From Nocardia ninae NBRC 108245 (GTDB taxonomy: Bacteria > Actinomycetota > Actinomycetes > Mycobacteriales > Mycobacteriaceae): a stretch of DNA of 64,000 nt. Within the stretch, counting starts at the first letter, position 1. Each line of letters starts with the position of its first letter. Below the pieces are notes generated by a model, which made no database searches, had not been told where the DNA came from, and was given only the letters and a program-made list of their open reading frames with translations. Where the stretch lies: positions 1 through 64,000 of the forward strand of contig NZ_BJXA01000048.1 in assembly GCF_007990755.1 (NCBI RefSeq), given 5' to 3'. The translations under genes and the position numbers were made by a program. Shown one piece after another: positions 1,281 through 48,810 of the stretch.

Positions 1281-2065
1281 AACGGGACATGTTGGCGGCA
1301 AGCGTCGAGTAGGCGCGCGCGCCGTGACGTCCCGTTAGGCGGGGTTACGCATGAGCGACGGGGCATGGTGGCGGCAGACGGTCGGGTGGGCGCGCCCTGG
1401 TGTCCCGTTCGGCGGGATAGCTGGTGCTCGGCGGGACGTGGTGGCGGCGAACGTCGAGTGGGCGCGCCGTGGTGTCCCGTTCGGCGGGATAGCTCATGGT
1501 CGGCGGGACGTGGCGGCGGCGAACGCCGAAGTGGATGCGTCGTGGTGTCCCGTTGGCCGGGGTAGCTCGTGTTCGGCGGGGCATGGTGGTGGCGAACGTT
1601 CGATGGGTGGGTGTGCCGTGAAGTCCTGGTGGCGAGGGAGCGCATCGTCGACGGGCCTGCTAGCGGCAAAACTTGAGTGGTGCGTTGTGGTGTCCCGTCG
1701 GGCGGGGGTACGCATGAGCGACGGGACATGTTGGTGGCGAACGTCGGGTGGGCGCGCCATGGTGTCCCGTCGGGCGGGGCAGTTCATGATCGAGGGGACC
1801 TGGTGGTGGTGAAGGTCGGGTGGGCGCGTCGTGGTGTCCCGTTTGGCGGGGTTGCTCGTGCTTGGCGGGACATGTTGGCGGCAAACGTCGAGTGGGCGCG
1901 CCGTGACGTCCCGTTGGGCGGGGGTACGCATGATCGACGGGACATGGTGGCGGCGAACGTCGGGGTGGGTGTGTCGTGGTGTCCCGTTTGGCGGGGTAGC
2001 TCGTGATCGACGGGACGTGGGGGCGGAATTGGCCGAGGGAGGTGGGCCGCTGTGTCCCGTTGATC
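1281..2065 (+). repeat. Tandem array of a 72-73-bp degenerate repeat, about 11 units
   Basis: The heptamer GTCCCGT (or a variant) recurs at about 1329, 1402, 1474, 1547, 1623 (decayed), 1692, 1764, 1836, 1908, 1981 and 2054, giving a period of 72-73 bp with one 76/69 pair around the decayed unit. Each unit carries GTCCCGT followed about 21 nt later by ACGGGAC or GCGGGAC, so every unit could fold into a hairpin, then a GGTGGCGGCGAACGTCGAG-like segment. Several overlapping frames stay open, but the period is not a constant multiple of three, so I do not call a protein here. The array fills the divergent gap between the sigma factor and cobD. Its unit matches the reverse complement of the array at 48103-48810. 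Confidence 0.9.
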
Positions 2066-2098
2066 GTGGGCTGGGGAGGGAGCGGATAGGCTCGGCGG

Positions 2099-3016
2099 GT
2101 GCAGAAGGGGACCGCTACCGCTGGGGGGTTGGTGTTGGGGTTTGTGCTCGATCGGGTGTTGGGGGATCCGCGGCGGTGGCATCCGGTGGCTGGATTCGGT
2201 TCGGTGGCAAGCGCGCTCGAATCGGTGACTTATGACGATCGGCGTCGTGCGGGGGTGCTGCATGAGGTGGTGCTGGTGGGGGCGGTGGTTGGAGTCGGTG
2301 TGGGGGTTCGTGGTCTCGGACTGCCTGCGACCGCGCTGGCCACCTGGACGGTGCTGGGCGGACGGAGCCTCGCCAAGGCTGGTAGCGAAATGGCCGATCG
2401 GCTGGAGGCCGGCGATCTGGACGGTGCTCGCGCGCTGCTGCCTTCGCTGTGCGGCCGCGACCCCGAGGTGCTCGACGCCGACGGATTGGCCCGCGCCGCA
2501 CTGGAATCCATCGCGGAGAACACCTCCGACGCGACGGTGGCCCCGCTGGTCTGGGGTGCGCTCGCCGGTGTGCCCGGCCTGCTCGGCTACCGCGCGATCA
2601 ACACCCTCGACGCGATGATCGGCTACCGCAACGACCGCTACCGCAACTTTGGCTGGGCGGCCGCGCGCACCGACGACCTGGCCAACCTGCTCCCCGCGCG
2701 CCTCACCGGTCTGCTCACCGTCGCGCTGGCCCCGCTGGTCGGTGGCCGCTCCGCCACCGCCCTGCGCGCCTGGCGCCGCGATGCCGCGCAACACCCCAGC
2801 CCCAACGCCGGAGTGGTCGAAGCATCGACGGCGGGCGCCCTGGGCATCCGGCTCGGCGGCCGCACCGAATACCCGCACGGCGTCGAACAACGCCCCACGC
2901 TCGGCGACGGACCCGCCCCCACCGTCGCGGATCTGCATCGCGCAGTACGCCTTTCGGAGGCGGTACAGGCGGCTGCAGTAGCGGTGGCCGTTCTCGGTGC
3001 GCTGGCCCGGCGTTAG
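2099..3016 (+). CDS. cobD: Cobalamin biosynthesis protein CobD/CbiB (adenosylcobinamide-phosphate synthase)
   Basis: The 305-residue membrane protein joins adenosylcobyric acid to (R)-1-amino-2-propanol or its phosphate, the step before nucleotide-loop assembly. Family landmarks are the N-terminal DRVLGDPRRWHPV, the central IAENTSDATVAPL and RAINTLDAMIGYRN, and several hydrophobic segments (about 35-60, 150-170, 200-215, 285-303). Length is normal for CbiB/CobD. Translation starts at GTG 2099. It lies on the opposite strand from SURF1/ptpA, with cobC beyond, the arrangement seen around Rv2236c-Rv2231c in M. tuberculosis. The last ~50 bp of the gene are duplicated just downstream (see 2963-3160). 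Confidence 0.93.
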   Translation: MQKGTATAGGLVLGFVLDRVLGDPRRWHPVAGFGSVASALESVTYDDRRRAGVLHEVVLVGAVVGVGVGVRGLGLPATALATWTVLGGRSLAKAGSEMADRLEAGDLDGARALLPSLCGRDPEVLDADGLARAALESIAENTSDATVAPLVWGALAGVPGLLGYRAINTLDAMIGYRNDRYRNFGWAAARTDDLANLLPARLTGLLTVALAPLVGGRSATALRAWRRDAAQHPSPNAGVVEASTAGALGIRLGGRTEYPHGVEQRPTLGDGPAPTVADLHRAVRLSEAVQAAAVAVAVLGALARR

Positions 3017-3160
3017 CCGTCGGTTCGTCCGATCGGTCTCGGACGCCGAGGGTGCCGGTCGACAGTACAGGCGGTTGCAGTAGCCGTTCTCGGTGCGCTG
3101 GCCCGGCGTCAGCCTTCGGTTCGTCCGATCAGTCTCGAACGCCGAGGGTGCCGGTCCAGG
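2963..3160. repeat. Direct tandem duplication of ~95 bp spanning convergent gene ends
   Basis: Copy 1 (about 2963-3060) starts inside the cobD 3' end and runs past its stop. Copy 2 (about 3065-3160) repeats it with a 6-bp deletion and a few substitutions and contains the last codons and stop of the minus-strand gene at 3129. Shared landmarks are GTTCTCGGTGCGCTGGCCC and CGCCGAGGGTGCCGGTC in both copies. Copy 1 therefore also holds an untranslated relic of the minus gene's C-terminus, and copy 2 a relic of the cobD terminus. Confidence 0.9.
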
Positions 3161-3878
3161 TGGCGGTGTCGAGACCGGCACGCCTGGCCAGCGCGAACAT
3201 GGCGGCGATGTCGTCGTCGTTGCGCGGTGGGCAGTCGTCCCTGGGGTACTCCTCCTCCGGGTAGTACAGCTCCTCCAGCCGTGTCATCCCCTCCGCGTAG
3301 GACCGCACGAGACGCTCGGTGATCGCGCCACGTTCGGCGGCGTCGAGCAGTTCCGCGCACAGCTCCGGCATGCCTGCGTCGGCATCGGAGAACTCCAGCC
3401 AGCCGGAGATCTTGTCGAGCGCCCCCTCGCGCGTCGTGAAAGCCGAGACGCCGCAGTCGAGTCCGTCGTCGGCCAGATCGTCGGGGTAGGGCGCCCGGTG
3501 CCAGGCCCCGTTCTCGAACCAGTAGACGCAGCCGACCATGTGGTCATCGATCAGGCCTTGCAGGTATCGGCGCGGCAGCCATTCCGGCGCTCCGGCCAGT
3601 AGGTCGATCGCGGGCTCGTACCACTTGACCTTGCTCGACTCGTCTTCCCCGACGAGTACGGCGCGGCCAGCACCGAACCACTTCAGCACCCACCAGGTGC
3701 AACCGGAGTCGTCCCAGTGCAAGCCGCCGTCGTCGATCCAGTATCCCGACCGATGGTGCGCCGGCTCGCTCTCCCGCTCGCGGTTGTAGGTCGCGACCGC
3801 GACGCCCGCCCACCGCTTCCACAGTAGGTGCGCATCCGGTAGATCGTCGGGGTGTCCGGGCCGGTTTAGCTTCCCCAA
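3129..3878 (-). CDS. Hypothetical protein, tryptophan-rich, acidic
   Basis: The product is 249 residues and I do not recognise its family. It is rich in Trp, Tyr, Asp and Glu with motifs such as YWIDDGGLHWDDSG, WWVLKWFGAGRAVLVGED and YWFENGAWHRAPYPDD, and looks cytosolic, with no signal peptide or membrane segment. The open frame continues far upstream across SURF1 and ptpA, but that part is their antisense shadow. I chose TTG at 3878 because an AGGAG lies 7 nt upstream and composition changes there. It is convergent with cobD, and its terminal codons (GTLGVRD) fall inside the tandem duplication. The compact acidic, aromatic-rich character recalls immunity or SUKH-like proteins, but that is only an impression. 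Confidence 0.7.
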   Translation of the reverse strand: MGKLNRPGHPDDLPDAHLLWKRWAGVAVATYNRERESEPAHHRSGYWIDDGGLHWDDSGCTWWVLKWFGAGRAVLVGEDESSKVKWYEPAIDLLAGAPEWLPRRYLQGLIDDHMVGCVYWFENGAWHRAPYPDDLADDGLDCGVSAFTTREGALDKISGWLEFSDADAGMPELCAELLDAAERGAITERLVRSYAEGMTRLEELYYPEEEYPRDDCPPRNDDDIAAMFALARRAGLDTATWTGTLGVRD

Positions 3879-3900
3879 TGTTCTTCTCCTGACTCGTGTT

Positions 3901-3928
3901 CGGTGGGCCAGCCTAGGCTGGCCCACCG
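3901..3928 (-). terminator. Perfect 28-bp palindrome, probable terminator or processing hairpin
   Basis: CGGTGGGCCAGCC is followed directly by its reverse complement through the centre CCTAGG. It sits between SURF1 (ends 4022) and the TTG-start gene (3878), both on the minus strand. There is no strong T-run, so Rho-independent function is uncertain. The 90 bp between it and SURF1 show no gene. Confidence 0.5.
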
Positions 3929-4021
3929 ACAGCACGGCCCCGACGCTGCCTCGGTGCCGGTACACAGAACTCCCTGGCGGCGGCGTAGTCCACCTCGGGC
4001 CAGCTGAGCTGTGCGGCTGGG

Positions 4022-4924
4022 TCAGTCGCGGCCGCGGCCGTAGCGGTCTGCCAGGCGCGCTTCGGTTGTCGGTTTGGCGGGGGCCGATGCGGCGGTGGGG
4101 GTTTCGGGTGACGTGGTATCGGGTGGGGGGCTGGCGGCAACCGGTTCGGTTGCGGTGCTTGTCTTTTCCCGGCGGCGTTCGCGGATCTCGGCGTAGACGA
4201 AGTAGCCGAGGCCCAGGGGCGCCATGATGCCGAAGGCCAGCCATTGCAGGCCGTAGGAGAGGTAGGGGCCTGCGTCGAGTTGGGGGAGGGGGGTGGGTTT
4301 GAAGGCACCGGGCTGGTTGTCGTCGAGTTGCAGGTAGCCGCCGCGTTCGCCGGTGGGGATCGGGGTCAGGGGTTGCTGCAGGACGGCGGCTTCCTGGGTG
4401 GTGTCGATCGAGTACACCTGCCGGTAGCCGTCTTGGATCGACGGGTCCTTGCCGGGGGTGATGCCTTCGGACATCCGGACCCGGGCTTCGAGACGTTGCG
4501 GCCCGGCGGGCGGGTCGGGGATCGGCGGCGGGCGGGAACCGTCCACCGCGGCGACGAGTCCGCGGTCGATCAGCAGCAGGCGACCGTCGTCCAGCCGGAA
4601 GGTGGCGAGCACGGAGTAGCCGGGGGCACCGTCGAGATGCCGCAGCCGGACCAGCACCGTCGAGTCCGGTTGGAAGGCGCCGGAAGCGGTGACCTTGCGC
4701 CATTCGGTGTGCGCGTCGTCGGCACTGGAGCTGTCCAGGACGGTGGTGATGTCGATCGGGTCGGCGCGCACCGAGTCGGCGATGAGCTGGTTGCGGTGCG
4801 AGGTGCTGGTGTTCTTGCCGAGCTGCCACGGCGCGAGCACCGTGAAGCACAGGTAAGCGAACACGGCGACCACGGCCGCGAGGATCACCCAGCTCGGGCG
4901 GAGCAGAAAGGTCAGCCTGCGCAT
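4022..4924 (-). CDS. SURF1 family cytochrome oxidase biogenesis protein
   Basis: The 300-residue protein fits the SURF1/Shy1 family, which helps insert cofactors into cytochrome c oxidase. It has an N-terminal membrane segment at about residues 12-33 ending in FTVLAPWQLGKN, an extracytoplasmic domain with the family pattern WRKVTASGAF and LLIDRGLV, and a second membrane segment at about 225-250 (SYGLQWLAFGIMAPLGLGYF). The tail after ~residue 255 is charged and Pro/Ala-rich. The start ATG (4922-4924) shares one base with the ptpA stop, so the pair is translationally coupled. This matches Rv2234-Rv2235 in M. tuberculosis. Confidence 0.9.
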   Translation of the reverse strand: MRRLTFLLRPSWVILAAVVAVFAYLCFTVLAPWQLGKNTSTSHRNQLIADSVRADPIDITTVLDSSSADDAHTEWRKVTASGAFQPDSTVLVRLRHLDGAPGYSVLATFRLDDGRLLLIDRGLVAAVDGSRPPPIPDPPAGPQRLEARVRMSEGITPGKDPSIQDGYRQVYSIDTTQEAAVLQQPLTPIPTGERGGYLQLDDNQPGAFKPTPLPQLDAGPYLSYGLQWLAFGIMAPLGLGYFVYAEIRERRREKTSTATEPVAASPPPDTTSPETPTAASAPAKPTTEARLADRYGRGRD

Positions 4925-5442
4925 CAGATTCGCCGATCGAGCAGCGGGTCGGGCGGCTGGGCGGGCAGGCCGAGCGCGTCGCGCACCCAGTCGAGCAGGC
5001 CGGGCATCGCGGCCTCGATCTGGTCACGGACGAGTTCGAAGTCGGCCGTGTCACCGTAGTAGGGGTCGGGCACGTCGGGCCCGTCGGCGGCCGGGTGGAA
5101 ACTGCGCAGCAGCCTGCGCCGATCCGACGGCACACCGAGGCGGGCCAGTTCGCGTTCGTGCGAGGTGTCGAGCGCGATCAGCAGGTCGGCGTCGCGATGG
5201 TCGGCGCCGAGGGCCGCGGCGATATGCCCGGTCGTGTAGCCGTACTTGCGCAAGGTGGCGGTGGTGCGGGTGTCCGCGTCGTCGCCGACGTGCCAGGCGC
5301 CGGTGCCCGCGCTGCTCACCCGCACCCGATCGGCCAGTCCCGCGCGGGACAAATGCATGGCGAAGATCTTCTCCGCCATCGGAGAACGGCAGATGTTGCC
5401 GGTACAGACGAACGAGACGTGCAGCTCACCCACGACAGCCAT
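4924..5442 (-). CDS. ptpA: Low molecular weight protein-tyrosine phosphatase PtpA
   Basis: The 172-residue enzyme hydrolyses phosphotyrosine. The CX5R phosphate loop CTGNICRS is at residues 13-20, and the general acid lies in DPYYGD near residue 125. In pathogenic mycobacteria the homologue is exported and acts on host targets; whether that applies here is unknown. It is first in a two-gene unit with SURF1 and divergent from cobC, with 44 bp between starts. The mycobacterial neighbour ptkA (HAD-type kinase, Rv2232) is missing from the gap. Confidence 0.93.
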   Translation of the reverse strand: MAVVGELHVSFVCTGNICRSPMAEKIFAMHLSRAGLADRVRVSSAGTGAWHVGDDADTRTTATLRKYGYTTGHIAAALGADHRDADLLIALDTSHERELARLGVPSDRRRLLRSFHPAADGPDVPDPYYGDTADFELVRDQIEAAMPGLLDWVRDALGLPAQPPDPLLDRRI

Positions 5443-5486
5443 TCTGGCCGGTCGACCTACGGGCCCGCCACGTAGGGTGTGCTCTC

Positions 5487-6527
5487 GTGTCCGAGGACAG
5501 CGTCGATCACGCGAAACTGCGCCACCACGGCGACGTGGACGCGCGCCCCGGCATGCTCGACTTCGCGGTGAACGTGCAGGGCAGCGCGCCGCCGGACTGG
5601 TTGCGGCAGCGGCTCGCGGCCCGGCTGGACACGCTCGGGCGCTACCCGAGTGCGGAGGAAGATCACACGGCTAGGTGTGCCGTTGCGGCCAGGCATGGGC
5701 GCCGCCCGGACGAGGTGCTGTTGCTGGCGGGTGCGGCCGAGGGCTTCGCCATGCTGCCGCGGCTCACACCCCGGCTGGCCGCCGTGCTCCACCCGTCGTT
5801 CACCGAGCCGGAGCTCGCGCTGCGCGCGGCCGGTGTCGCGGTGACCAGGGTGCTGCTAGCGCCGCCGTACAGGCTCGACCCGGCCGCTGTCCCGGCCGAG
5901 GCCGACCTCGTGGTGCTCGGCAATCCGACCAACCCGACCTCGGTGCTGCACCCGGCTGAAACCATCCGCGCGTTGCGCAGGCCGGGCCGGACCCTCGTGG
6001 TCGACGAGGCGTTCGCCGACGCGGTGGCGGGGGAGCCCGAATCGCTCGCCGGGTACTCTGCACCCGATCTGCTCGTTCTGCGCAGCCTCACCAAAACCTG
6101 GGCGCTCGCCGGGCTCCGCTGCGGTTACTTCCTCGGTGCCCCCGAACTCCTGGCGCGCCTGAATCACGGCCGTGCCCACTGGCCGCTCGGCACCCTGCAA
6201 CTGGAGGCGATCACCGCCACCGCCGAGCCGCATGCGGTCGCAGAGGAACAGCAGCGCGCCCAGGCGATCGCCGTCGAACGCGCCGCGATGATCGAGCGGC
6301 TCACCGAACTGGGCGTGCATGTGCACACGCCGGCCGAGGCGCCGTTCCTGTTGCTCCGCGTTCCCGATGGTGAGCTGCTCCGGAAGTACCTGGCGGACAA
6401 CGGCATTGCCGTCCGTCGCGCGGATACTTTTCCCGGTCTCGGGCCGAACCATCTCCGCGTCGCGGTGCGCGGCACCACCGAGGTAGACCGACTCGTCACC
6501 GCCATACGAACGGCGGACCTCTGGTGA
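5487..6527 (+). CDS. cobC: Threonine-phosphate decarboxylase-like aminotransferase CobC (PLP-dependent)
   Basis: The 346-residue class I/II aminotransferase-fold protein corresponds to Rv2231c. It probably makes (R)-1-amino-2-propanol phosphate for the CobD reaction, consistent with cobD 2.5 kb away. The N-terminus HHGDVDARPGMLDFAVNVQ is typical of CobC/CobD decarboxylases. LGNPTNPTS and VVDEAFAD bind PLP, and the Schiff-base lysine is in SLTKTWALAG near residue 205. GTG 5487 is the start. Distinguishing it from histidinol-phosphate aminotransferase rests on the neighbourhood and the N-terminal motif. Confidence 0.88.
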   Translation: MSEDSVDHAKLRHHGDVDARPGMLDFAVNVQGSAPPDWLRQRLAARLDTLGRYPSAEEDHTARCAVAARHGRRPDEVLLLAGAAEGFAMLPRLTPRLAAVLHPSFTEPELALRAAGVAVTRVLLAPPYRLDPAAVPAEADLVVLGNPTNPTSVLHPAETIRALRRPGRTLVVDEAFADAVAGEPESLAGYSAPDLLVLRSLTKTWALAGLRCGYFLGAPELLARLNHGRAHWPLGTLQLEAITATAEPHAVAEEQQRAQAIAVERAAMIERLTELGVHVHTPAEAPFLLLRVPDGELLRKYLADNGIAVRRADTFPGLGPNHLRVAVRGTTEVDRLVTAIRTADLW

Positions 6528-6558
6528 GCACCGAGGCCCACCCCCGACCACATGAGCA

Positions 6559-6636
6559 CAGCCGCACACCTTCTGATGTGGCGTACACGGAATCGCATGC
6601 AATTCCGTATGCGCCACATCAAAAGTCGTGCGGCTG
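6559..6636. terminator. Long imperfect inverted repeat downstream of cobC
   Basis: CAGCCGCAC begins the left arm and GTGCGGCTG closes the right, with GATGTGGCGTACACGGAAT opposed by ATTCCGTATGCGCCACATC and a GCATGC centre. It folds as a ~36-bp stem with a few mismatches. It lies between cobC and the NIF3 gene, both on the plus strand, and may terminate cobC transcription. The outer CAGCCGCAC sequence is shared with the perfect hairpin at 17390-17453. Confidence 0.65.
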
Positions 6637-6711
6637 CCGGGTTGGGCCGCTGCGGGGGTCGGCTCGGGAGGGAATGCGACAGTTCATGGACGGACCACAG
6701 GAGGGTGAACG

Positions 6712-7833
6712 ATGACCACACTGGCGGATCTCATCGAAGTGCTCGACGCGGCATACCCACCGAAACTGGCGGAGTCGTGGGATTCGGTCGGGCTGGTCGC
6801 CGGTGATCCGGCCGACGAGGTCACCAGAGTGCTGTTCGCGGTCGACGCCACCGCGGGCGTGGTCGAGGAGGCGATCGACTGGCGGGCACAGGCTTTGGTG
6901 GTGCACCACCCATTGCTGTTACGCGGCGTCGACACCGTCGCGGCCGACACTCCGAAAGGTGCACTGCTGCACCGGCTCATCCGTTCCGGCTGCGCGTTGT
7001 TCACCGCGCACACCAACGCGGACTCCGCCGACCCGGGCGTCTCCGACGCGCTGGCCGCCGCGATCGGCCTCACCGTCACCGGCCCGATCGATGCGAAACC
7101 CGAAGCCCCCATCGACAACTGGGTCGTGCAGGTGCCTCCGTCGCACGCCGACGCAGTGCTGTCCGCCTTGTTCATGGCGGGCGCAGGCAGCAGCGGCGAC
7201 TATCGCGACTGCGCACTCCGGGTGCCCGCGGTCGGCCAGTTCCGGCCGATGGCGGAGGCAACCCCGGCCGTCGGCGTGCTCGGTGAACTCCAGCGGGTCG
7301 ACGAGGAGCGCCTCGAGCTGATCGCGCCGCCCGCCGCCCGCGCCGCCATCCTGTCCGCCCTGCGCGCCGCCCACCCCTACGAGGACCCGGCGTATCACAT
7401 CACCGAACGCGCCTCGCTGCCGTCGACGGTCGGCATCGGCCGCGTCGGCACCTTGCCGGAACCGGAGTCGTTGCGCGCCTTCACCGATCGAGTCGCCGCG
7501 GCACTGCCGCCGAGCGCGTGGGGCGTGCGCGCCGCAGGCGACCCGGACCGCTCCATCTACACGGTCGCCGTCTGCGGCGGCGCAGGCGATTCCTACCTGA
7601 ACGCGGTGACTCGCCGCGGCGTCGACGCGTACGTCACCGCGGACCTGCGCCATCACCCCGTCGACGAACACCTGCGCAAGGGCGGCCCCGCCCTCATCGA
7701 CGCCGCCCACTGGGCGACCGAATTCCCTTGGTGCGCACAGGCGGAACGGGTCGTGCAGGCCGGCCTGCCCGGCCTCGAGACGCGCGTGTCGACGCTGCGG
7801 ACCGACCCGTGGACGGTCAGCGCGCGGAGCTGA
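6712..7833 (+). CDS. NIF3-like dinuclear metal centre protein (DUF34)
   Basis: The 373-residue protein belongs to the NIF3/YbgI family, toroidal hexamers with a two-metal site. Visible landmarks are the N-terminal AESWDSVGLVAGDP, the metal ligands HHPLLLRGV, the HTNADSADPGVSDALA segment, and the C-terminal DLRHHPVDEHL. The ~130-residue middle insertion (HPYEDPAYHI) is the PII-like domain of the long actinobacterial form. Biochemical function is unsettled. ATG 6712 follows GGAGGGTGAACG. It is the orthologue of Rv2230c. Confidence 0.92.
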   Translation: MTTLADLIEVLDAAYPPKLAESWDSVGLVAGDPADEVTRVLFAVDATAGVVEEAIDWRAQALVVHHPLLLRGVDTVAADTPKGALLHRLIRSGCALFTAHTNADSADPGVSDALAAAIGLTVTGPIDAKPEAPIDNWVVQVPPSHADAVLSALFMAGAGSSGDYRDCALRVPAVGQFRPMAEATPAVGVLGELQRVDEERLELIAPPAARAAILSALRAAHPYEDPAYHITERASLPSTVGIGRVGTLPEPESLRAFTDRVAAALPPSAWGVRAAGDPDRSIYTVAVCGGAGDSYLNAVTRRGVDAYVTADLRHHPVDEHLRKGGPALIDAAHWATEFPWCAQAERVVQAGLPGLETRVSTLRTDPWTVSARS

Positions 7834-8246
7834 GCTGGGCAGTATTTGCGCGGACCTGACCTGAGCTGAGCTGATCAGTTTGGTCGCGCGGAGCTGAGCT
7901 GATCAGTAGCCGCGCCGGGCTGGGACCGACCAGCACTAGCGCCGAGCCGCGGCCTATTGATAGTTGCGCCAAGCTGATTCGATCAGCAGTCGCGCCGGGC
8001 TGAGCTGACCAGGGTGGCGCCGGGCTGAGCTGACCAGAGGTGGTGCCGGGCGGGGTCGACCAGTGGTCGCGCTGTGCCGGGTTGGTCCGCAGTCACGTCG
8101 AGTCGGGCTGGCCCGCAATCGCGCGGGGCTACGCTGGTCAGCAGTGCGCCAACCTGGGCCGACCAGCAAGGCCCGATCAGTAGTTGCGCCGAGCTGAGCC
8201 CATCAGCAAACGCCCGCGTACTGACCCGATCAGTAGTTGCGCGGCG
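7818..8246. repeat. Degenerate ~27-bp tandem repeat array between convergent genes
   Basis: About 15 units resemble TTGCGCCGAGCTGAGC followed by GATCAGCAG-like sequence, with unit length drifting from 22 to 29 bp. The array starts on the last codons of the NIF3 gene (stop TGA at 7831 lies in GAGCTGAGCTG) and ends on the last codons of the zinc-ribbon gene (stop at 8230 lies in GATCAGTAGTTGCG). Both flanking proteins thus end in repeat-encoded residues. No separate gene is seen between 7834 and 8229. Confidence 0.85.
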
Positions 8247-8532
8247 GCTGTCCGTGCCAGGACGGATCCGCAGGCTGCCCACTGTGCACGTTCTCCGTCT
8301 GCGCCCGCCCCGCCAACTCCGTGGCCTGCTGCTTCGTGAGCTTCGACTCGGCACCACACCAGGTGCATTGCAGGGAGTGCTTGGTGCTCAACGGGATCAG
8401 TGGCACGAAGAACAGCGTGAATTTGGTGACCAGTTTCCGCAGTATGTGGGCTGCGGGGTTGCCGCAGCTGCCGCACACCAGGGTGAGCACGGCGAGCCGA
8501 TGCGCGTACTGACGCCAACCGAAGATCACCAT
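8230..8532 (-). CDS. Small zinc-ribbon protein
   Basis: This 100-residue protein has two CxxC knuckles, CGSC at 20-23 and CTWC at 56-59, separated by a hydrophobic stretch (KFTLFFVPLIPLST) that fits the family of small actinobacterial zinc-ribbon proteins. The tail is polar. ATG 8532 is the start. Its last three codons (Arg-Asn-Tyr) and stop come from the 27-bp repeat array. Function is unknown; the ribbon suggests protein or nucleic-acid binding. Confidence 0.8.
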   Translation of the reverse strand: MVIFGWRQYAHRLAVLTLVCGSCGNPAAHILRKLVTKFTLFFVPLIPLSTKHSLQCTWCGAESKLTKQQATELAGRAQTENVHSGQPADPSWHGQPPRNY

Positions 8533-8670
8533 GGAAAACCCCCGAAGTATCGAACTTTGACCCCATCGACCTTACCGCCGCTTCGGCGTGTCGGCGCGTG
8601 TCTACTGGATTGGTTTGTGCGGTCGGTTGTTTCCGCGAGTCGACCGGTGATTCAGGGGTACAACTACCGC

Positions 8671-9312
8671 ATGAATTTCCCGGTGAACTTCGGCTTCGTG
8701 CAGATCGGGTTGATCTTGATCATCCTGATCGCGATCGCACTGCTCATCTCCGGGCTGCTGCGGGCCCGCCGGGTCGGCTTCCGCGCACTGATCACGCGCG
8801 GCGGCAGCGGGCTGGTGCTGCTGGTGGTCGCGGTGGTGCTGCTCTGGCTGGCGACGTTGATGCAGACCTATCTCGGGTTGACCGGAGAGATCAAAGCGGC
8901 GCACGTGGTGGCCAAGGAGGTGGAGGGGCAGGAGCACCTGCTCGATATCGAGCTCACCCTCTACGGCGACGACCAGCACGACGAGCAGCGGCTGAAGTAC
9001 CAGGTCGAGGGCGATACGTGGGTGCTGCAAGCGGGCATCGTCGAGCTGGAACCGTGGGTGAACGCGCTCGGTTTCCACTCCGGATACAAGATCAGCAGGC
9101 TGTACGGCCAGCGCCTGGACGGTGTCGCGACCTCGCAGAACCAGATCTTCCTCAACGGCGGCGACCGGGACTTCTTCGATGACATGCGCAAGGGTCGCTG
9201 GTTTACCGAGCCGTTCGTGCGCTCGGCCTACGGCAACGCGGTGATCGCGGTCCCCGGTGAGTACGACGTCTTCGTCTCCAGGGACGCCATCAAGACCCGC
9301 GCCCCGGCCTGA
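8671..9312 (+). CDS. Membrane-anchored hypothetical protein, two N-terminal helices
   Basis: The 213-residue product has two hydrophobic segments (about 8-28, VQIGLILIILIAIALLISG, and 43-66, GSGLVLLVVAVVLLWLATLM) followed by a ~145-residue soluble domain with many charged residues and HLLDIELTLYGDDQ, YQVEGDTWVLQA and GVATSQNQIFLNGGDRDFF. The soluble part is probably extracytoplasmic. I do not recognise the family with certainty. ATG 8671 begins just before the first helix; the open frame continues upstream into repeats and the antisense of the zinc-ribbon gene. Confidence 0.75.
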   Translation: MNFPVNFGFVQIGLILIILIAIALLISGLLRARRVGFRALITRGGSGLVLLVVAVVLLWLATLMQTYLGLTGEIKAAHVVAKEVEGQEHLLDIELTLYGDDQHDEQRLKYQVEGDTWVLQAGIVELEPWVNALGFHSGYKISRLYGQRLDGVATSQNQIFLNGGDRDFFDDMRKGRWFTEPFVRSAYGNAVIAVPGEYDVFVSRDAIKTRAPA

Positions 9313-20510: not shown

Positions 20511-20930
<420 letters not shown>

Positions 20931-41501: not shown

Positions 41502-42871
41502 GCATCGGCTCCTGTGGTCGGCGCGGGGCCCGACGGCTGCGCGAACTGCGCGATCAGCCGCCGGTTGAACTCGATGAGTCGAGCGTAGTTGACCAGGGAG
41601 AGGCGCTCGTCGGTTCCGTGGATCGATGCGATATCGCGTGCGCCGAGCACGATCGGGGCGAAGTTGCAGCGGGTGCCCGCGAGGTCGTGGTAGTGCCGTG
41701 AGTCGGTGGCGCCGGGCACGATGCCGGTGGTGACGACGACGCCGGGGACGATGGCCCGCGCGATGTCGGCGATCACGTCGAACGCAGGCCCCGGTGCGGC
41801 GTGCACCGTCGGCTCGGACGCCATGCCCTCCGCTTCGATCCGAACACCCTTGTCGCGCACCACCTTCCGGCAATGCGCCAGCACCGACTGGACCGAATCG
41901 CCGGGCAGGATGCGGAAATTGACGAAGGCCTCGGCATGCTGGGGCAGCACATTCGCCTTCACGCCGCCGCGGATCACCGTGGGGGCGGTGGTGGTGCGCA
42001 CCATCGCCTCGGTCTGCGGCCGCATCGCCATCACCCGGGTGACCAGCGGTGCGGCGAGACCGGCCAGGCCGAGCAGCCTGCTGCGCGACGCGGGCATCGC
42101 GTGCCGCAACCTGGCCAGCATGTCGGCGGTCACCGGCGTCATCCGCAACGGCATCGGATGATCCTGGATGCGGCTCACCGCCCGCGCGATCCGGCCGACC
42201 GCGGTCTGCTTGCCCGGCATGGACGAATGTCCGCCGACCTCGCTGACCGACAGTTGCACTGTCGCATAACCCTTCTCGCCGAGCATGATGCTGGCGACCG
42301 GTTGCTCGACCCCCTCGGCGACGCCCTCGGTGATCATGCCGCCCTCGTCGAGCAGCAGGTCGGCCTGTACGCCGTCGCGACGAAGGCGCTCCGCCATGTG
42401 CATCGCGCCGGTGTCGCCGAACACCTCTTCGTCGTGGCCGAAAGCCAGGAAGATGGTGTGCCGCGGGCGAACTCCCGCCGCCAACGCCGACTCGACCGCC
42501 TCCAGGATCGCCAGCAGCCTGCTCTTGTCGTCGATCGCGCCACGGCCCCAGATGAATTCGTCATCGATCACGCCCGCGAACGGCGGATGGGTCCAGCGCT
42601 GGGGGTCGTCCACCGGCACCACGTCCTGGTGGGCGAGCAGGATCGCGGAGACGCGCTCGGGCTCGACGCCGGGCCAGCGGTAGAGCCTGCTGTAGCCGAA
42701 TCGCTCCAGCTCGAGCTCAGCGTGTACCCGCGGAAAAGATTGCTCGAGGTGTGCGGAAAGTTGTACGAAGGCCGCATCGTCGACGTGTTTCGGATCGTCG
42801 GTGGACACGGTGACGCACCGTAATGCGGCGGCGAGGCGCTCTGCGGTGCGGTGGTCGACGGGGTCCGTCAT
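41498..42871 (-). CDS. M20 family metallopeptidase
   Basis: The 457-residue di-zinc peptidase/carboxypeptidase has LLAHQDVVPV and WGRGAIDDKS (first metal and catalytic Asp), FGHDEEVFGDTGA (Glu pair), and the dimerisation lid with VGGHSSMPG. It resembles carboxypeptidase S/PM20D1-like enzymes, which cleave or form N-acyl amino acids; that specificity is inference. ATG 42871 overlaps the upstream gene by ATGA. Confidence 0.9.
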   Translation of the reverse strand: MTDPVDHRTAERLAAALRCVTVSTDDPKHVDDAAFVQLSAHLEQSFPRVHAELELERFGYSRLYRWPGVEPERVSAILLAHQDVVPVDDPQRWTHPPFAGVIDDEFIWGRGAIDDKSRLLAILEAVESALAAGVRPRHTIFLAFGHDEEVFGDTGAMHMAERLRRDGVQADLLLDEGGMITEGVAEGVEQPVASIMLGEKGYATVQLSVSEVGGHSSMPGKQTAVGRIARAVSRIQDHPMPLRMTPVTADMLARLRHAMPASRSRLLGLAGLAAPLVTRVMAMRPQTEAMVRTTTAPTVIRGGVKANVLPQHAEAFVNFRILPGDSVQSVLAHCRKVVRDKGVRIEAEGMASEPTVHAAPGPAFDVIADIARAIVPGVVVTTGIVPGATDSRHYHDLAGTRCNFAPIVLGARDIASIHGTDERLSLVNYARLIEFNRRLIAQFAQPSGPAPTTGADA

Positions 42872-44538
42872 CGGGCACCGGTGCGGTTCGGCAAATTCAT
42901 GGACACCGTCGCATTGTTCAGCATGGCCGGGGCGAGCGGGATGGTCTTCTCGTTTCGCCACTTCACGATGCCCTCGGTCATGCCGCCGACGAGGTCCGGC
43001 GTGCGGGTCCCCGTCAGCAAGGGGAGCTCGATCCGCGCTTCGGTGACGGTGACCTGGGCGAAGGCGGGCGTGTGTGACCAGACGTCGTCGACGACGTCGG
43101 TGACGCGCACGCCGATCCGGTGGCCCGCCGCGATCGGCCAATCCTGGGCCAGCAGGCGGACTTCGGCGGTGTCGCCGCCGACGGGTGCGATGCCGCGGGT
43201 GATGACGGTGGCCTGGTTGTCGGGGGCGATGTCGTAGAGCTCCACCGCGACAGTGGCATTGGCCGGACCGTTCACCCGCAGCGACGCCGACGGCATGCCG
43301 GACAGGTGCTGGGCCTGGGCCAAAGGTTCGGAGACCGACCAGAATTCGCGGTCCGGGCCGGGCAGCAGGCCGCGGTCGGTGTAGCCGCCGGGGCGCAGCT
43401 CGACCGGTATGCGGGCGGCATCAGCAGGCGGCCATGCGGTTTCGGCGCGCCAGTTGCCGTCGAACTGGCCCACCGTGATCCGTGGGCCGGGCACCTGCAC
43501 ATCGCGGCCTGCGACGTGCTTGTCGAAGAAGGCGAGCAGCTCGGTATCGAAATGCGGTGTGCCGCACTTGTCGTGGCAGGTGCGGTGGCCCCACTGGCCG
43601 AACCACGCCTTGTGGTCGCCGGGGCCGAGGCCGTTCCACAGGTCGAACACGCGGTAGGCGCGGGTGTTGTAGTCGACGAAGCCCTGACCGAGGAACAGGG
43701 GAATAGTGTTGCCGCGCAACGGGCCCACCAGATCGCGGTCGCGCCAGAAGGAAGAGTTGCCGTCGTGATTGGTCATGTCGGCCAGGTACTGCTGGTAACA
43801 CTGCATCGGCAGTTGGGCCGCAGCGGCTTGGTATTCGGGTAGATCCTCCGGGCGGGCCGGGGTCGACGCGATCAGCAGGTGCTCCAGTCCGGCGAGATCG
43901 GCTGGGCGTACGCCGTTCTCGGTGATCGGCTTGCCCGAGAACTTCCACGAGATGCCCTGCATGTACAGGTACGAATATGGGTCTACCACCGGTTCGAACG
44001 ACGCGACCGCCGCCAAGCCCTTCGGCTTCGTCGCCAGGCCCATCAAGCCGGTCCACGCCTCGTAGGAGACGCCGAACATGCCGACCTTGCCCGTGGACCA
44101 CGGTTGGTTCGCGGCCCACTCCACCGCGGTCGCGACGTCGGATCGTTCGCCGGGGCCGCCGAAATCCGGGCAGCCGGTAGAGCCGCCGAAACCGCGCAGA
44201 TCGACGACCACATAGGTGTAGCCGGCGCGCAGGAACATGTCCGCCTGCAGGTTGTCGGTGGACGGGCCGCCGCGCAGCCGGGGCTCACTCAGATACGCCA
44301 GGTGGGCACGGTACGGACTGACGGTGAGGACGACTGGCGTGCGCACGTCGTCGGCGATGCCCGCCGGACGCAGAATGTCCGCGTGCAGCCGAGTGCCGTC
44401 CGGCGCATCGAGAAACGCCTGCCGCCACTGGAACGGCTCCGACAGCGGCTCCGCCCCCGCCGTCACCGGCGTGGTCACAGCCAACAGCAGCAACAGCCCG
44501 CACAAGGCGCGCACCAGGACCGTTCGTTCGCTCACCAT
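42868..44538 (-). CDS. Exported CocE/NonD (S15 family) hydrolase
   Basis: The 556-residue protein has a signal peptide (VLVRALCGLLLLLAVTTPVT, ending near AGAEP), a CocE-type alpha/beta hydrolase domain (VVVDLRGFGGSTGCPD; nucleophile GVSYEAWTG near Ser 157) and a C-terminal jelly-roll domain (VTEARIELPLLTG). Family members are X-Pro dipeptidyl peptidases or esterases. ATG 44538. It is first in the three-gene unit, and the enzymes could process peptides or acylated amino acids stepwise from outside to inside. Confidence 0.88.
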   Translation of the reverse strand: MVSERTVLVRALCGLLLLLAVTTPVTAGAEPLSEPFQWRQAFLDAPDGTRLHADILRPAGIADDVRTPVVLTVSPYRAHLAYLSEPRLRGGPSTDNLQADMFLRAGYTYVVVDLRGFGGSTGCPDFGGPGERSDVATAVEWAANQPWSTGKVGMFGVSYEAWTGLMGLATKPKGLAAVASFEPVVDPYSYLYMQGISWKFSGKPITENGVRPADLAGLEHLLIASTPARPEDLPEYQAAAAQLPMQCYQQYLADMTNHDGNSSFWRDRDLVGPLRGNTIPLFLGQGFVDYNTRAYRVFDLWNGLGPGDHKAWFGQWGHRTCHDKCGTPHFDTELLAFFDKHVAGRDVQVPGPRITVGQFDGNWRAETAWPPADAARIPVELRPGGYTDRGLLPGPDREFWSVSEPLAQAQHLSGMPSASLRVNGPANATVAVELYDIAPDNQATVITRGIAPVGGDTAEVRLLAQDWPIAAGHRIGVRVTDVVDDVWSHTPAFAQVTVTEARIELPLLTGTRTPDLVGGMTEGIVKWRNEKTIPLAPAMLNNATVSMNLPNRTGAR

Positions 44539-44926
44539 AGGACTATCGAGTGTGCCCGGACGACCGTCCAGCCCCTGGAACCGGGGTGGTCTGTTGGTGG
44601 GGGTCCCCGAGGAGCGCAGCCGATGCGGTTTGTCGGATGGCCGGTGCAGCTGTGGGCGGCGGTCCACCAGGTCGCCACCTCGGTCCGGGGCGGAGTCTCA
44701 GTAGCTACACGGTCGCGCCGGGTGGCGTTGCCGGTCGGGCTGTGCGCGTTGCGGTTGCGGAATGCCGGGCTACCTCGGGTGGCCTGCTGGAGTCTCGGCG
44801 GCCGGCAAGCACGATGTGGGCGTGCTGGCTGGGGTCGGCACTCCTCTGGCGCCGGCGCCCGAGGTGTTGCCAATCCGCCGGGCGGGCGCCATGCCGTGTT
44901 CACTCCGGGCCGCCAGCATGGGCCAT
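44539..44926. other. Divergent intergenic region without a clear gene
   Basis: This 388-bp gap between the exported hydrolase and the DMT-type transporter must hold both promoters. I see no convincing coding frame, terminator or repeat array. Frames crossing it lack ribosome-binding sites and change composition at the real starts. Confidence 0.5.
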
Positions 44927-45853
44927 ATGTCGGAGGCTGTGGGCGTGCAGGACAGCGGCCCTGTCGATGTGGTCGCGGTGGGGACAATTTCTCTCGCGCT
45001 GTTCGCGGCGTTGCTGTTCGCGGTGTCGGCGGCGTTGCAGCAGGGGGCGGCGCGGCAGGCTGCTACCGAAGCCGGGCAAGGTCGGTTTCTGGTGATCGTG
45101 GGGATTGCTCGTCGGTTGGTCACCGATCGGCGGTGGTTGGCGGGGCAGGGTGCGAATGTGGCGGGGTTCGTGGTGCATGCGGTGGCGCTGCGGGTCGGGG
45201 CGATCGCGGTGGTGCAGGCGCTGCTGGTGGTGCAGCTGCTGTTCGCGTTGCCGTTCGCGGCGGCGCGGCGCAGGCGGGCGTTGCTCGGGCGGGATTGGGC
45301 GGGGACCGCTTTCGTGTGTGCGGGGTTGATTCTGCTGGTCGGACAGAGTGCGCCGGGGCATGCGGAGGTGCGGCCGGAGTTGCTGCCCGGGGTCGGTGTG
45401 GGTGTGTTCCTGGGGATCGTCGTGTTGGTCGCCGTGTCGCGTCTGACGAAGTCGACGCAGTTGCGGTCGGCGTTGGTCGCGGTGGCGGCGGGTTGCTGCT
45501 TCTCGACCACGGCGGTGCTGGTGGTCATCGCGACGACGGTGCTCCCTGATCCGAGTTGGCCGCTGCTGGGGATTCCGGTGTCGACCGTCCTTGGCGGACT
45601 GCTCACGCAGGAGGCGTACGCCAGAGGTTCGCTGCCCACCGCGCTCACCGCGATGACGATCACCGACCCGGTGCTCAGTTACGCGGCAGGTCTGACTCTG
45701 TTCGCGGTGACTGTTCATCCGCGTCCGGTGCTACTGATCCTGGCGGCTGTGCTGGTGATCGCCGGGATCGCGTTGCTGGCGAACTCACCCACGTTGCATG
45801 ACGAACTGGACCCGTCACCGTCGGATCAGCCGGTGTGTGAACGGGTCTCGTAG
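44927..45853 (+). CDS. DMT-type ten-helix membrane transporter
   Basis: The ~308-residue protein has about ten hydrophobic helices, beginning TISLALFAALLFAVSAALQQ, with a positive inside loop (AAARRRRALLGRDW) and inverted-repeat architecture like the DMT/NIPA-type family. Substrate cannot be told (metabolite or Mg2+). ATG 44927 is used; ATG 44918 would add three residues, and the still earlier open frame lacks membrane character. The gene ends next to the 20/24-bp repeat array. Confidence 0.78.
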   Translation: MSEAVGVQDSGPVDVVAVGTISLALFAALLFAVSAALQQGAARQAATEAGQGRFLVIVGIARRLVTDRRWLAGQGANVAGFVVHAVALRVGAIAVVQALLVVQLLFALPFAAARRRRALLGRDWAGTAFVCAGLILLVGQSAPGHAEVRPELLPGVGVGVFLGIVVLVAVSRLTKSTQLRSALVAVAAGCCFSTTAVLVVIATTVLPDPSWPLLGIPVSTVLGGLLTQEAYARGSLPTALTAMTITDPVLSYAAGLTLFAVTVHPRPVLLILAAVLVIAGIALLANSPTLHDELDPSPSDQPVCERVS

Positions 45854-45917
45854 TTGAAGTTTCGGTGTGGGCGTCCAAGGGCAGCACCGAGATTCGATTC
45901 ACAACCATGCCGCCGAT

Positions 45918-46045
45918 GCCGCGATTCGGGAAGGACTGACTGCCGCGCTTCGAGAAGGACCGCCGCGATTCGAGGAGGACTGACTGCCGCGATTCGGGGA
46001 GGACCGCCGCGATTCGGGGAGGACTGCCGCCGATTCGAGAACGAC
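45918..46045. repeat. Tandem 20/24-bp repeat array between convergent genes
   Basis: Six units of GCCGCGATTCGGGGAGGACT-type sequence occur at 45918 (24 bp), 45942 (20), 45962 (24), 45986 (20), 46006 (20) and 46026 (decayed). The 24-bp units carry an extra GACT, so the first four form two 44-bp double units. The array lies between the DMT-type gene and the glycosyltransferase stop. Confidence 0.9.
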
Positions 46046-46129
46046 GAGTCTGGAACCGCACGGGTGGACATGGCGGCGGGTCTACTCGGACTTTGCCGCC
46101 GCCGTGTCCCCCTGAGCATGGTTGTGTGG

Positions 46130-47239
46130 TCAGGCTGAGCGGGCAGGGGATTCATAGTCGGCGTACAGGGCGAGCATGCCTGTGACCGTGGCTGACCACG
46201 GGAAACGTTCTGCCGCGAGGCGGGCGGCGTGACGGCGCTGCGGGGCGGGGATCGTCAGGAGCTGGCGGACGCCGCCGGCCAAGCCCTGCGGAGTGCCATC
46301 GGAGACGATGCCGGAACCGCGGGCGTCGACGAGTTCACGCGCGGCGCCCGCGTCGGGGACTACGACGGGGGTGCCGCAGGCGAGAGATTCCAGGACCGCG
46401 AGGCCGAAAGTCTCAGCGGGGGAGGGGAATATCGCGATATCGGCGTTGGCCACCAGGGTTGCCATGGTGGCGCGATCGGTGAGGTGACCGTGGAAGACCA
46501 CCGGGAGCCCGATAGCCAGGCGCTCGAGCCGAGGCCGCAGCGGGCCGTCGCCGATGACCGCGAGTTCGCAGCGCAGACCGGACTCGACCAGTACCCGCAC
46601 CGCCTCGATCGCACGTTCGGCCCGCTTCTCCTTGGACAGCCTGCTCACCAGCACCAGGCGTACCGGATCGCCAGCGGCCCAGGGTGTTTCGGTGGGGCGG
46701 AAGGTGGTCAGGTCGACGCCCAGCGGGACGCGACGCACATTGGTGGCCCCGATCCGAGCGAACTCCGCCGTCGCGAAACTCGAAGTGACCACCACCTTCT
46801 CGGCCCGCACGCAGAGGCGGCGATTGGCGAGGTCGGCGGCGGCGGTCAACGGGAAACCAGGTGGCACGCGCGTGCGCAGGATGGCGTCGATACGTTCGTG
46901 CGAGAACAGCACCAGCGGCACACCGACACCGCGCGCCCACGGGGCAAGCCACCGCACACTCAGCTTGTCGCTGCACTCCAGCACATCCGGCCGCAACCCA
47001 TCCAGGATCGCCCGAGTTCGCCGAGCAGTCAGCACGTGATACCCACCCGCCCCGAACTTCGGACTGTGCACGGTAATCCGCCGCCCCGACACCGTCGACT
47101 CATCGCCATCCGCCGGCCCCGGAACCACCAGCACCCGATCATGCCCCGCAGCCAGATACCCCCGACCGATCTCATCGAGACAGGTCCGCAGTCCCCCGGA
47201 GGCGGGGGTGTAGAAGTTGGCGATCTGCACGATTCGCAT
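46130..47239 (-). CDS. Family 4 glycosyltransferase (mannosyltransferase-like)
   Basis: The 369-residue GT-B enzyme has IANFYTPASGGLRTCLDEIG at the N-terminus, GVDLTTFRP, LVSRLSKEKRAERAIEAV (nucleotide-sugar contacts), and the EX7E region SPAETFGLAVLESLACGTPVV. It resembles the GDP-mannose-dependent MgtA/PimB-type enzymes of lipoarabinomannan and glycolipid synthesis. The start ATG overlaps the deacetylase stop as TGATG, so the two are coupled. Confidence 0.9.
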   Translation of the reverse strand: MRIVQIANFYTPASGGLRTCLDEIGRGYLAAGHDRVLVVPGPADGDESTVSGRRITVHSPKFGAGGYHVLTARRTRAILDGLRPDVLECSDKLSVRWLAPWARGVGVPLVLFSHERIDAILRTRVPPGFPLTAAADLANRRLCVRAEKVVVTSSFATAEFARIGATNVRRVPLGVDLTTFRPTETPWAAGDPVRLVLVSRLSKEKRAERAIEAVRVLVESGLRCELAVIGDGPLRPRLERLAIGLPVVFHGHLTDRATMATLVANADIAIFPSPAETFGLAVLESLACGTPVVVPDAGAARELVDARGSGIVSDGTPQGLAGGVRQLLTIPAPQRRHAARLAAERFPWSATVTGMLALYADYESPARSA

Positions 47240-47979
47240 CAGCTGTCCGCCGCTCTGACCAAGTCGGCGTAGGTGGTTGCTCGAGCGCCCGCGTGCAGGG
47301 CGGCGTCGATGGCGCGCAAGGTGGCGTCGCGGAGGCCGGGGCAGTGCAGGTCGTCCGGGTGTAAGGCGAGGCGCACGAGTCCGCCGCGTGCCGCGTTGCG
47401 GCGGGCCATGGTGACCAGCATGGTGGCGCCGAAGCGTTCGGACCAGCCGCCGCCGGGGCGGTGCGAGAGGGCGAAACCACAATGGCGGCGACCGGTTCGC
47501 AGGTCCTTTGCGCCGAAGTGGTCCGTGGTGTGCGAGAAGCCTGCCTCGCGTAGTGCTTGTTCCGCTGCGGGTGAGGCGAGCCAGCCGGGCGGAGTGAAAC
47601 CCGTTGTCGACAGGCCGGATTCAGCCATCACCGCGTTGGCTTCCTGGAGCTTGACGGCCGCCTCGCCAGTGGAGAGCGCGGCGAATTCTGCCGCGCCGCG
47701 CGCCACCGCACGGCCCAGCGCCCGTCGCGGCCACCCACCCTCGGGCCCGGCCCGATGCGACCACCCATGCACCATGATCTCGTCCCCACCGGCTCGCCGT
47801 TCCCGCAAAAAATCCGCGTAATCCGGCCGCTCGGCCAACCCCGCACCCCGCCACGGACCCGGAATAACCAACAGCGACACCGGAATCCCGAACCCATCGG
47901 CATCCGCACACCACCGCGCCGTCTCCGCCGAACTAGCAGGCGCGACGTCATGAACGCTCACCACCAACCGCGCACCCAC
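47239..47979 (-). CDS. DUF2334-type polysaccharide deacetylase-like protein
   Basis: The ~246-residue protein has the NodB-like barrel features LVVSVHDVAPAS (first Asp), EIMVHGWSHR (HxxxH-type metal ligands), TPPGWLASPAAEQALREAGF and LALHPDDL. DUF2334 members are putative deacetylases of cell-surface sugars. GTG 47979 is my choice since it begins the first strand; a longer frame to 48039 and a TTG just before are possible. Coupling to the glycosyltransferase suggests one envelope glycan pathway. Confidence 0.85.
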   Translation of the reverse strand: MGARLVVSVHDVAPASSAETARWCADADGFGIPVSLLVIPGPWRGAGLAERPDYADFLRERRAGGDEIMVHGWSHRAGPEGGWPRRALGRAVARGAAEFAALSTGEAAVKLQEANAVMAESGLSTTGFTPPGWLASPAAEQALREAGFSHTTDHFGAKDLRTGRRHCGFALSHRPGGGWSERFGATMLVTMARRNAARGGLVRLALHPDDLHCPGLRDATLRAIDAALHAGARATTYADLVRAADS

Positions 47980-48102
47980 GCACCGCAAACTAACACCACC
48001 CGGTAGCCACCAGCTGAACAGCAAACCGCCGAAACCCAACGGATCAGCACCCCGCCCCAGCGGGACATCCCCGCGCGCTCACTCGCGGTTCACCGCCACC
48101 AC

Positions 48103-48810
48103 CTCCCGCTCGGAGAACAACTCGACCCCGCTGCGCGTCGAGCGGGACACCATGGCGGGCTTACTCGCGATGGACCGCCGGCGTGTCCCGCTGGGTGAGC
48201 GGCTGTGCGTCAAGTGGGACATCGCGGCGCGCTCACCCGCAATTCGTCGCCACTTTGTTCCGCTGGGTTATCGGTTCCGTCTCGCCGCCGGCCGAGCGAA
48301 CATCACGGCGTGCTTTACCCGCAGGTGGTCGCTGCCATGTCCCGCTCGGTGAGCAGTTCGACCCCGCTGCGCGTCGAGTGGGACACCATGGCGGGCTTAC
48401 TCGCGATGGACCGCCGCCGTGTCCCGCTGGGTGAGCGGCTGTGCGTCGAGCGGGGCATCGCGGCGCGCTCATTCGGGGTTCGCCGCCACGTTGTCCCGCT
48501 GGGTGACCGGCTCGGCTTCGCTGTGCGTCGAGTGGGACGTCATGGCGTGCTCACTTGCGGCTCGCCGCCGCTATGTCCCGCTGGGTGATCGGCTCGGCCC
48601 CGCTGCACGCCGAGCGGGAGACCATGGCGGGCTTACTCGCGATTGGCCGCCGCGTTGTCCCGCTGCGTGACCGGCTGTGCGTCGAGTGGGACATCGTGGC
48701 GTACTCACTCGGGGTTCGTCGCCACGTTGTCCCGCTGGGAGAGTAGTTCCGTCTTGTTGTGCGCCGAACGGGACATCACGGCGTACTGACCGGTGCGTCG
48801 CCACCGTGAA
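48103..48810 (-). repeat. Tandem array with 236-bp higher-order unit (82+72+82 bp), three copies
   Basis: GTCCCGCT-like anchors recur at 48103, 48185, 48257, 48339, 48421, 48493, 48575, 48657, 48729 and a decayed 48811, giving spacings 82, 72, 82, 82, 72, 82, 82, 72, 82. Units three apart are most alike (for example 48103, 48339 and 48575 all carry CATGGCGGGCTTACTCGCGA), so three-unit blocks were duplicated. Each unit has GTCCCGCT opposed by AGCGGGAC or AGTGGGAC about 25-45 nt later. Read on the minus strand the 72-bp unit aligns with the 1281-2065 array. Decayed units continue on both sides (about 48060-48102 and 48811-48840). No gene is seen between 47980 and 49078. Confidence 0.93.

Follow-up and report, generated by a model that had tools for sequence, protein, structure and literature searches.

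REP/BIME elements are dispersed intergenic palindromes found mostly downstream of genes, between convergent or unidirectional neighbours; the REPs measure 20-40 bp and carry a GTAG or CGTC tag, and the GTAG REPs accompany RAYT transposases (PMC3733652). BOX elements of Streptococcus pneumoniae are modular and dispersed, vary in the number of their tandem units and are enriched in convergent gaps, and SPRITE of the same species is a stem-loop near the 3' ends of coding sequences that is suggested to have been co-opted as a terminator (PMC3049150). The repeat family described here comes from Nocardia ninae NBRC 108245, whose genome comprises 9.70 Mb in 204 contigs; the stretch analysed, hereafter the window, covers bases 1-64,000 of contig C48. 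In its basic form the element is one palindrome, about 54-70 bp long and here called a solo, that typically lies about 15 bp behind a stop codon. We read the family as undescribed and REP/BOX-like, with solos acting as 3'-end RNA hairpins and arrays as lineage-specific expansions. The probability that these dispersed Nocardia palindromes are a family of 3'-end RNA hairpins that has been retained behind genes and has expanded locally in this group is put at roughly 0.47.

The element resembles the described systems in part. Like the REP/BIME elements of the GTAG and CGTC superfamilies, it is a dispersed intergenic palindrome enriched behind genes; unlike a REP, it is 54-70 bp long with a conserved asymmetric loop. 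The consensus has no GTAG or CGTC end tag, and the Y1 (RAYT-type) transposase family PF01797 has no match in this genome (G000), in N. suismassiliense S-137 (G095), N. colli (G137), G127, G092 or G131; it matches one of 14 Nocardia genomes (G068). Because two defining REP features are lacking (the RAYT-type transposase, and the end tag and size), the element is not filed as a REP; neither "Nocardia" nor "actinobacteria" occurs in the main text of PMC3733652. Variable tandem copy number and convergent enrichment are shared with BOX, whereas sequence and host differ, the whole palindrome is repeated every 72 bp or so, and solos are the usual form in the other Nocardia loci examined. With SPRITE, the element shares a stem-loop close to the 3' ends of coding sequences, although the Nocardia stems have no uridine-rich tract.

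MIRU-VNTR loci of mycobacteria, a related genus, are intergenic tandem repeats of variable copy number. Compared by description only, the Nocardia family differs in that its base form is a covarying solo hairpin. Three other candidates were set aside. A KOPS-like signal skewed between replichores seems at odds with the strands of the G127 copies, which look mixed among the matches listed; the 34-bp gap would not fit DosR-type boxes, which have GGGAC/GTCCC half-sites; and CRISPR is ruled out by spacers that are alike within an array.

The solo hairpin and its position behind genes

Solos form stable hairpins. Five that were folded gave z-scores from -2.5 to -8.8, the best being L237 (-54.5 kcal/mol, with a 25-bp stem), and the solo in the window folds at z = -3.0. 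Over 55 solos the arms covary with a score of 0.252, against 0.168 +/- 0.010 for shuffles, and 0 of 500 shuffles score as high. The 25 stem pairs are 78.2% paired, 20 of them show two-sided changes, and RNAalifold predicts 10 pairs. The GGGAC/GTCCC core itself varies on both sides in a few copies (GGCAC/GTGCC in L290 and L102). This solo alignment (A2) was made by MAFFT and was not fitted to structure, and its members were found with sequence-only profiles; solos below 27 bits were dropped, leaving 50 of 61 from four genomes (this one and the focal relatives N. suismassiliense, N. colli and G127) plus five from other species. The resulting solo model has 69 positions and the core profile 53.

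Position relative to genes provides a second line of evidence. Genes were called by our own codon-usage script, in which 5' ends are rough and 3' ends are set by stop codons. Gaps holding elements in the four genomes number 65 convergent, 58 tandem and 11 divergent, compared with 75, 280 and 154 element-free gaps of at least 60 bp. Fisher's test gives an odds ratio of 5.45 for convergent gaps (p 2.8e-15), an enrichment, and of 0.21 for divergent gaps (p 2.9e-8), a depletion; both p-values are too small because orthologous loci of related genomes are counted separately and because gaps with elements are longer. When only gaps of at least 150 bp are considered, the convergent, tandem and divergent counts are 58/52/11 with elements versus 43/155/119 without. 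The 66 clusters of this genome divide into 30 convergent, 31 tandem and 3 divergent, with 2 at a contig or region edge, and all gaps above 50 bp in the same regions divide 64/147/73. Besides the two window arrays, the only divergent cluster is the solo L279; the original prediction that the arrays fill divergent gaps thus describes both window arrays accurately and an exception across the family.

For tandem solos in the four genomes the median distance is 16 bp to the stop of the upstream gene and 154 bp to the gene that follows, and 24 of 27 are nearer the upstream gene. Similar placement is seen elsewhere. Of 46 additional loci, 8 came from this genome or G095 and one lay at a contig edge; the remaining 37, all top-scoring matches that include 3 weak ones from other genera and 8 from G017, comprise 15 convergent, 19 tandem and 3 divergent, and all 19 tandem loci are nearer the upstream gene. 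In L247 and L253, both solos, the palindrome arm contains or abuts the upstream gene's TGA stop, and the TGATCA of one arm type has TGA on both strands. A coding array was also considered and rejected, since clusters overlapping a called open reading frame by more than 40 bp number 0 of 66 in this genome and 1 of 28 in G095; under a looser gene caller used earlier, 2 of 46 clusters overlapped weak reading frames.

Placement, covariation and a weak preference of the loop for the sense strand (21 versus 8 tandem solos, p 0.024) suggest a role at the RNA level. One feature of intrinsic terminators, a stable GC-rich stem directly behind the stop codon, is present, and the mean T fraction of solo flanks is 0.198 compared with 0.164 in the window. 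A protein factor acting on the solos is probable because the stems lack a U-run. A bolder proposal, which is unlikely, is that throughout the genus the solos serve as a transcription terminator that depends on a factor, or as a signal for 3'-end processing; their conserved CGAGT loop would be read by a predicted protein and they would replace the scarce U-run terminators of the order, the arrays being stronger tandem insulators between converging genes.

Arrays as probable expansions of the hairpin

The window holds two arrays and one solo (Table 1). Tandem Repeats Finder (TRF) confirms both arrays, and profiles built from one array alone recognize the other: the array 1 profile matches array 2 10 times, on the minus strand (E<=1; best 1.4e-5), and the array 2 profile matches array 1 8 times (best 9.8e-9). 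None of 200 dinucleotide shuffles of array 2 exceeds 5.5 bits against the array 1 profile, compared with 21.6 bits for the real sequence. Each profile also recovers the solo (46066-46110), which the original prediction had overlooked, and that of array 1 gives one additional, chance-level match elsewhere (E 0.8). The relationship proposed between the two arrays is upheld, with similarity above shuffle level and further copies outside the window. The proposed 72-bp unit applies to array 1, where TRF reports periods of 72 (score 673) and 145 (score 748), and fails for most of array 2, where six of nine steps are 82 bp and three are 72 bp (TRF periods 82, score 303, and 236, score 877); the unit originally quoted, at 48421-48492, is one of these 72-bp steps. 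Nor do the units align along their whole length, as had been claimed: what the arrays have in common is a core of about 53 bp (consensus AACGGGACATGGCGGCGGCGAAGCGCGAGTGGGCCCGCCGTCATGTCCCGTTC), and the spacer of about 24 bp is specific to the locus.

Table 1. Repeat features of the window and the genes beside array 1
Feature	Position	Strand	Remarks
Array 1	1281..2065	+	10 units (E<0.05), 9 of them at E<0.01; steps mostly 72-73 bp
Array 1 core, well conserved	1430..1482	+	44.4 bits
Array 1 core, top score	1864..1916	+	45.5 bits
Array 2	48056..48818 (about 48050-48830)	-	10 units
Solo element	46061..46113	-	convergent gap, 16 bp from stop of minus-strand glycosyltransferase gene
Sigma-70-family gene	77..1039	-	left of array 1
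cobD/cbiB gene	2099..3016	+	right of array 1

By our own gene calls, the divergent gap of array 1 is bounded by the sigma-70-family and CobD-CbiB genes and that of array 2 by a DUF2334 gene and a TY-Chap3 gene. Two extra copies lie just beyond the window, at about C48:64400-64525. A 20/44-bp repeat (CGATTCGGGGAGGACTG-like, 45917-46045) adjoins the solo; N. suismassiliense has a longer version, and the gaps of G127, N. colli and G063, which are shorter, lack it. Three to four imperfect 47-bp units occupy 50955-51130 (best unit CGCAGGTTCGAACCCTGCG), where no tRNA is called; each has a piece that resembles a tRNA T arm. The window also encodes a class A RNase P RNA (20516-20929) and tRNA-Arg(gcg) (56283-56357).

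The step between units is nearly, though not strictly, the fixed period originally proposed. Of 322 neighbour distances of up to 110 bp in the four genomes, 253 are 70-74 bp (189 exactly 72), none is 75-77, 38 are 78-84 (from 17 loci) and 31 are others. In the first locus set of this genome, 138 of 145 neighbouring copies have the same orientation. Two abutting elements at L062:3948-4074, one 72-bp step apart, carry their loops in opposite directions, as though the loop had been inverted or a second element had joined. The near-constant step may be the length of one full element, about 70 bp including outer CATGATC/GATCATG arms, and the L062 spacer is essentially two CATGATC-type arms back to back. 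If so, no spacing rule is required, and a helical-phase rule is the bolder alternative. As candidates for the separate end modules of a BOX-like repeat, CATGATC-type arms (up to 1 mismatch) mark the outer ends of arrays in 6 of 46 cases on the left and 9 of 51 on the right, compared with 14 of 229 and 2 of 224 inside arrays and with 17 of 46 and 11 of 46 in solos.

That bolder alternative belongs to a proposal in which the element acts as DNA: the CGGGACAT...ATGTCCCG dyad would bind a protein such as gyrase or a nucleoid protein between converging transcription units, and the arrays would be phased multi-site platforms. In its favour, the two distance classes are about one helical turn apart, and GGGAC and GTCCC are each at least 90% conserved in 126 copies. 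Selecting matches by score, however, favours conserved columns, the constant step could be no more than the element's own length, and the covariation of solos points to pairing rather than a fixed binding sequence. A chromosome element of this kind seems improbable, somewhat more so than the genus-wide terminator.

Array units appear to have lost part of what the solos retain. They keep the GGGAC/GTCCC dyad and fold better than shuffles and less well than solos: the mean z is -2.44 for 324 units from arrays of four or more copies (55% below -2), compared with -4.93 for the 55 solos (87% below -2). In the alignment A1, which consists of 126 array-dominated copies (4 of 130 were dropped for odd lengths), pairing is 78.8% against 79.2% after shuffling, indicating no covariation, and is far above that of the structure slid by 1-3 columns (30.6-48.6%). 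The units still fold, more weakly and without covariation, and look like relaxed descendants of a maintained hairpin. The original description of the repeats as hairpin-bearing therefore fits the solos strongly, and the array units in dyad and folding, although not in covarying arms. An alternative hairpin formed between neighbouring units across the spacer was rejected, as its arms pair no better than random.

Spacer identity is 0.67 within a locus, 0.38 between loci and 0.28 when shuffled; for a set of 29 arrays (22 unlinked spacer groups) it is 0.67 within and 0.39 between loci. Spacers were also considered as copies of a solo ancestor's native flanks; a spacer's own flank was not clearly better than the flanks of others, L043 being suggestive by eye only. 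Locus-specific spacers and unstable copy number are what neutral tandem repeats generated by slippage, without function, would show. The same core, however, is shared by many loci and by 64 of 148 Nocardia genomes, and the solos covary. Slippage as a full account is thus very improbable; it is contradicted for the core and may hold for array growth itself. The original view that the repeats are a chromosome-wide element rather than local slippage is borne out in that the family is dispersed, but not for the arrays, which turn over locally, with locus-specific spacers and from 1 to 16 copies at shared sites.

Extent of the family and history of its sites

Genome searches scored the best 33-150 candidates per genome, and all copy counts are therefore lower bounds. 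With array 1 as a DNA query, this genome has at least 88 matches at E<=10; with the sequence model it has at least 177 at E<=1 (best 150 of 12,282 candidates scored). The regions examined, chosen for high-scoring matches so that empty sites are under-sampled, contain at E<0.01 at least 240 copies in 66 clusters in this genome, and at least 157 copies in 28 clusters in N. suismassiliense, 118 in 26 in N. colli and 28 in 23 in G127. With a structure model made from the 55 solos, the family is recognized in 64 of 148 Nocardia genomes, including this one, and with a sequence-only model in 33 of 148. Across the order, the structure model matches 6 of 150 genomes, two Nocardia and four of other genera with one weak match each. 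The claim of a dispersed, chromosome-wide family is thereby substantiated, with more copies both in this genome and in related Nocardia. Rfam gives no match at gathering scores for the window arrays and solo, nor any up to E 0.5 for four solo loci, and no description of the hairpin family was found among the papers listed for Nocardia repeats.

Many sites are shared among close relatives. For 32 of this genome's 66 clusters, the regions from G095, G137 and G127 contain an orthologous counterpart; orientation is kept in every comparison except one (L291), and flanks of sites common to several species are 82-96% identical. Copy number is far less stable, with shared sites showing 13/8/9/1, 12/16/1 or 1/8 copies. 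Arrays reach 16 units and are present at many sites in this genome, N. suismassiliense and N. colli. The cobD/cbiB gene served to locate the orthologous gap of array 1 in named species, and by this region the closest relative is N. suismassiliense, followed by N. colli. The gap upstream of cobD has 10 copies in this genome, 9 of them at E<0.01; N. suismassiliense has 12 there and N. colli 5, and none was found in N. brasiliensis or N. vulneris.

The inferred main direction of change is likely from solo to array, because this genome has arrays at several of the sites of G127, where 19 solos, 3 doublets and one triplet occur, and because the 37 loci of other genomes (about 3 kb each) never have more than one profile match. 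At L058 of this genome a single copy is flanked on both sides by unit remnants, which looks like an array shrunk to one copy and suggests that change runs both ways.

Four loci were followed across species. At L281, the element is found in this genome and its three focal relatives, all of which keep the neighbouring gene, and in 0 of 19 other genomes, none of which had a match to that gene. At L275, a 78-bp block containing the element is missing from N. suismassiliense, between flanks that are 93-95% identical; this reads as a loss because N. colli has an element beside the same gene. No target duplication is seen at L275, the sole close empty/filled pair and apparently a loss, and the other empty sites are too diverged to judge. 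Sites therefore persist among close relatives and are not fixed over the genus.

The remaining two loci belong with a set of observations that weigh against a hairpin kept at gene ends. Among 11 genomes with a comparable gap, the window solo is present in this genome and N. suismassiliense (18.6 bits), and the corresponding gap yielded no copy in nine other Nocardia genomes (the gap is unmatched in G068), which reads as a gain in the common ancestor of the two. The L276 element, present in this genome, is doubled in N. suismassiliense, has the opposite orientation in G092 and was not found in G109 or G008. The absence at L275 has no visible harm. Element gaps are longer than others (median 583-776 versus 172-215 bp), so that the independence of placement, like its p-values, is overstated. 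Two old arm subfamilies (TTCG and TTGATCATG) may explain part of the solo covariation, as may template-switch correction of palindromes. RNAalifold predicts no structure for the array-dominated set, the sense-strand loop bias is weak and is absent in arrays (11 versus 19), and TTTT follows the stem in only 2 of 92 solo flanks.

Several of these features would be expected of a selfish REP/MITE-like element (MITE, miniature inverted-repeat transposable element) whose transposase is lost or unrecognized, the chief rival, which is possible but less probable than the favoured reading. Its position at 3' ends would reflect insertion preference or least-harm survival, and its palindromy a need of the transposase. 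Hundreds of dispersed copies, the two arm subfamilies, terminal inverted repeats as in MITEs (the 25-bp stem of L237), larger repeated blocks that carry arrays (L057, L060 and L064) and the window solo, present in 2 of 11 comparable genomes as a gain would show, are all consistent with this proposal. REP, BOX and IS (insertion sequence) elements show the same convergent enrichment (PMC3733652 and PMC3049150). On the other hand, PF01797, the sole transposase family searched, has no match in the four focal genomes; many sites are common to species in the same orientation; the one clean presence/absence pair looks like loss; and no target duplication accompanies that pair, the only one close enough to judge.

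Two further repeats were observed in the same regions. A noncoding block of about 0.9 kb (L057:3922-4810 and L060:3009-3898, 86% alike), with parts 80-90% alike in L064, L044 and L062, contains or adjoins arrays and is a second, larger dispersed repeat. Copies of about 62 bp at L034:4409-4469, L042:4314-4373 and L043:5162-5224 are 84-87% identical to one at L057:7933-7993; their likeness between loci is above that of most other copies, perhaps the result of a recent burst.

A proposed role at gene ends

For the gene-end hairpin, the favoured reading, the working unit would be a single hairpin of about 54-70 bp close behind a stop codon. The hairpin would act in RNA and could be transcribed from either side, its stem of up to 25 bp marking and protecting mRNA 3' ends and helping to keep transcription out of neighbouring and opposing genes; a protein factor probably takes part. 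Many such sites in this genome, N. suismassiliense and N. colli would have expanded locally, through tandem duplication and loss of units, into head-to-tail arrays with a step near 72 bp, and the array units, no longer needing matched arms, would have decayed.

The family offers a natural copy series (solo, doublet and array) of one gene-end hairpin across many related species. Two problems become testable with this series: gene termination in actinobacteria that have few classical terminators, and the growth of short intergenic repeats into arrays of near-constant step. Strain typing of Nocardia is a possible further use of the arrays.

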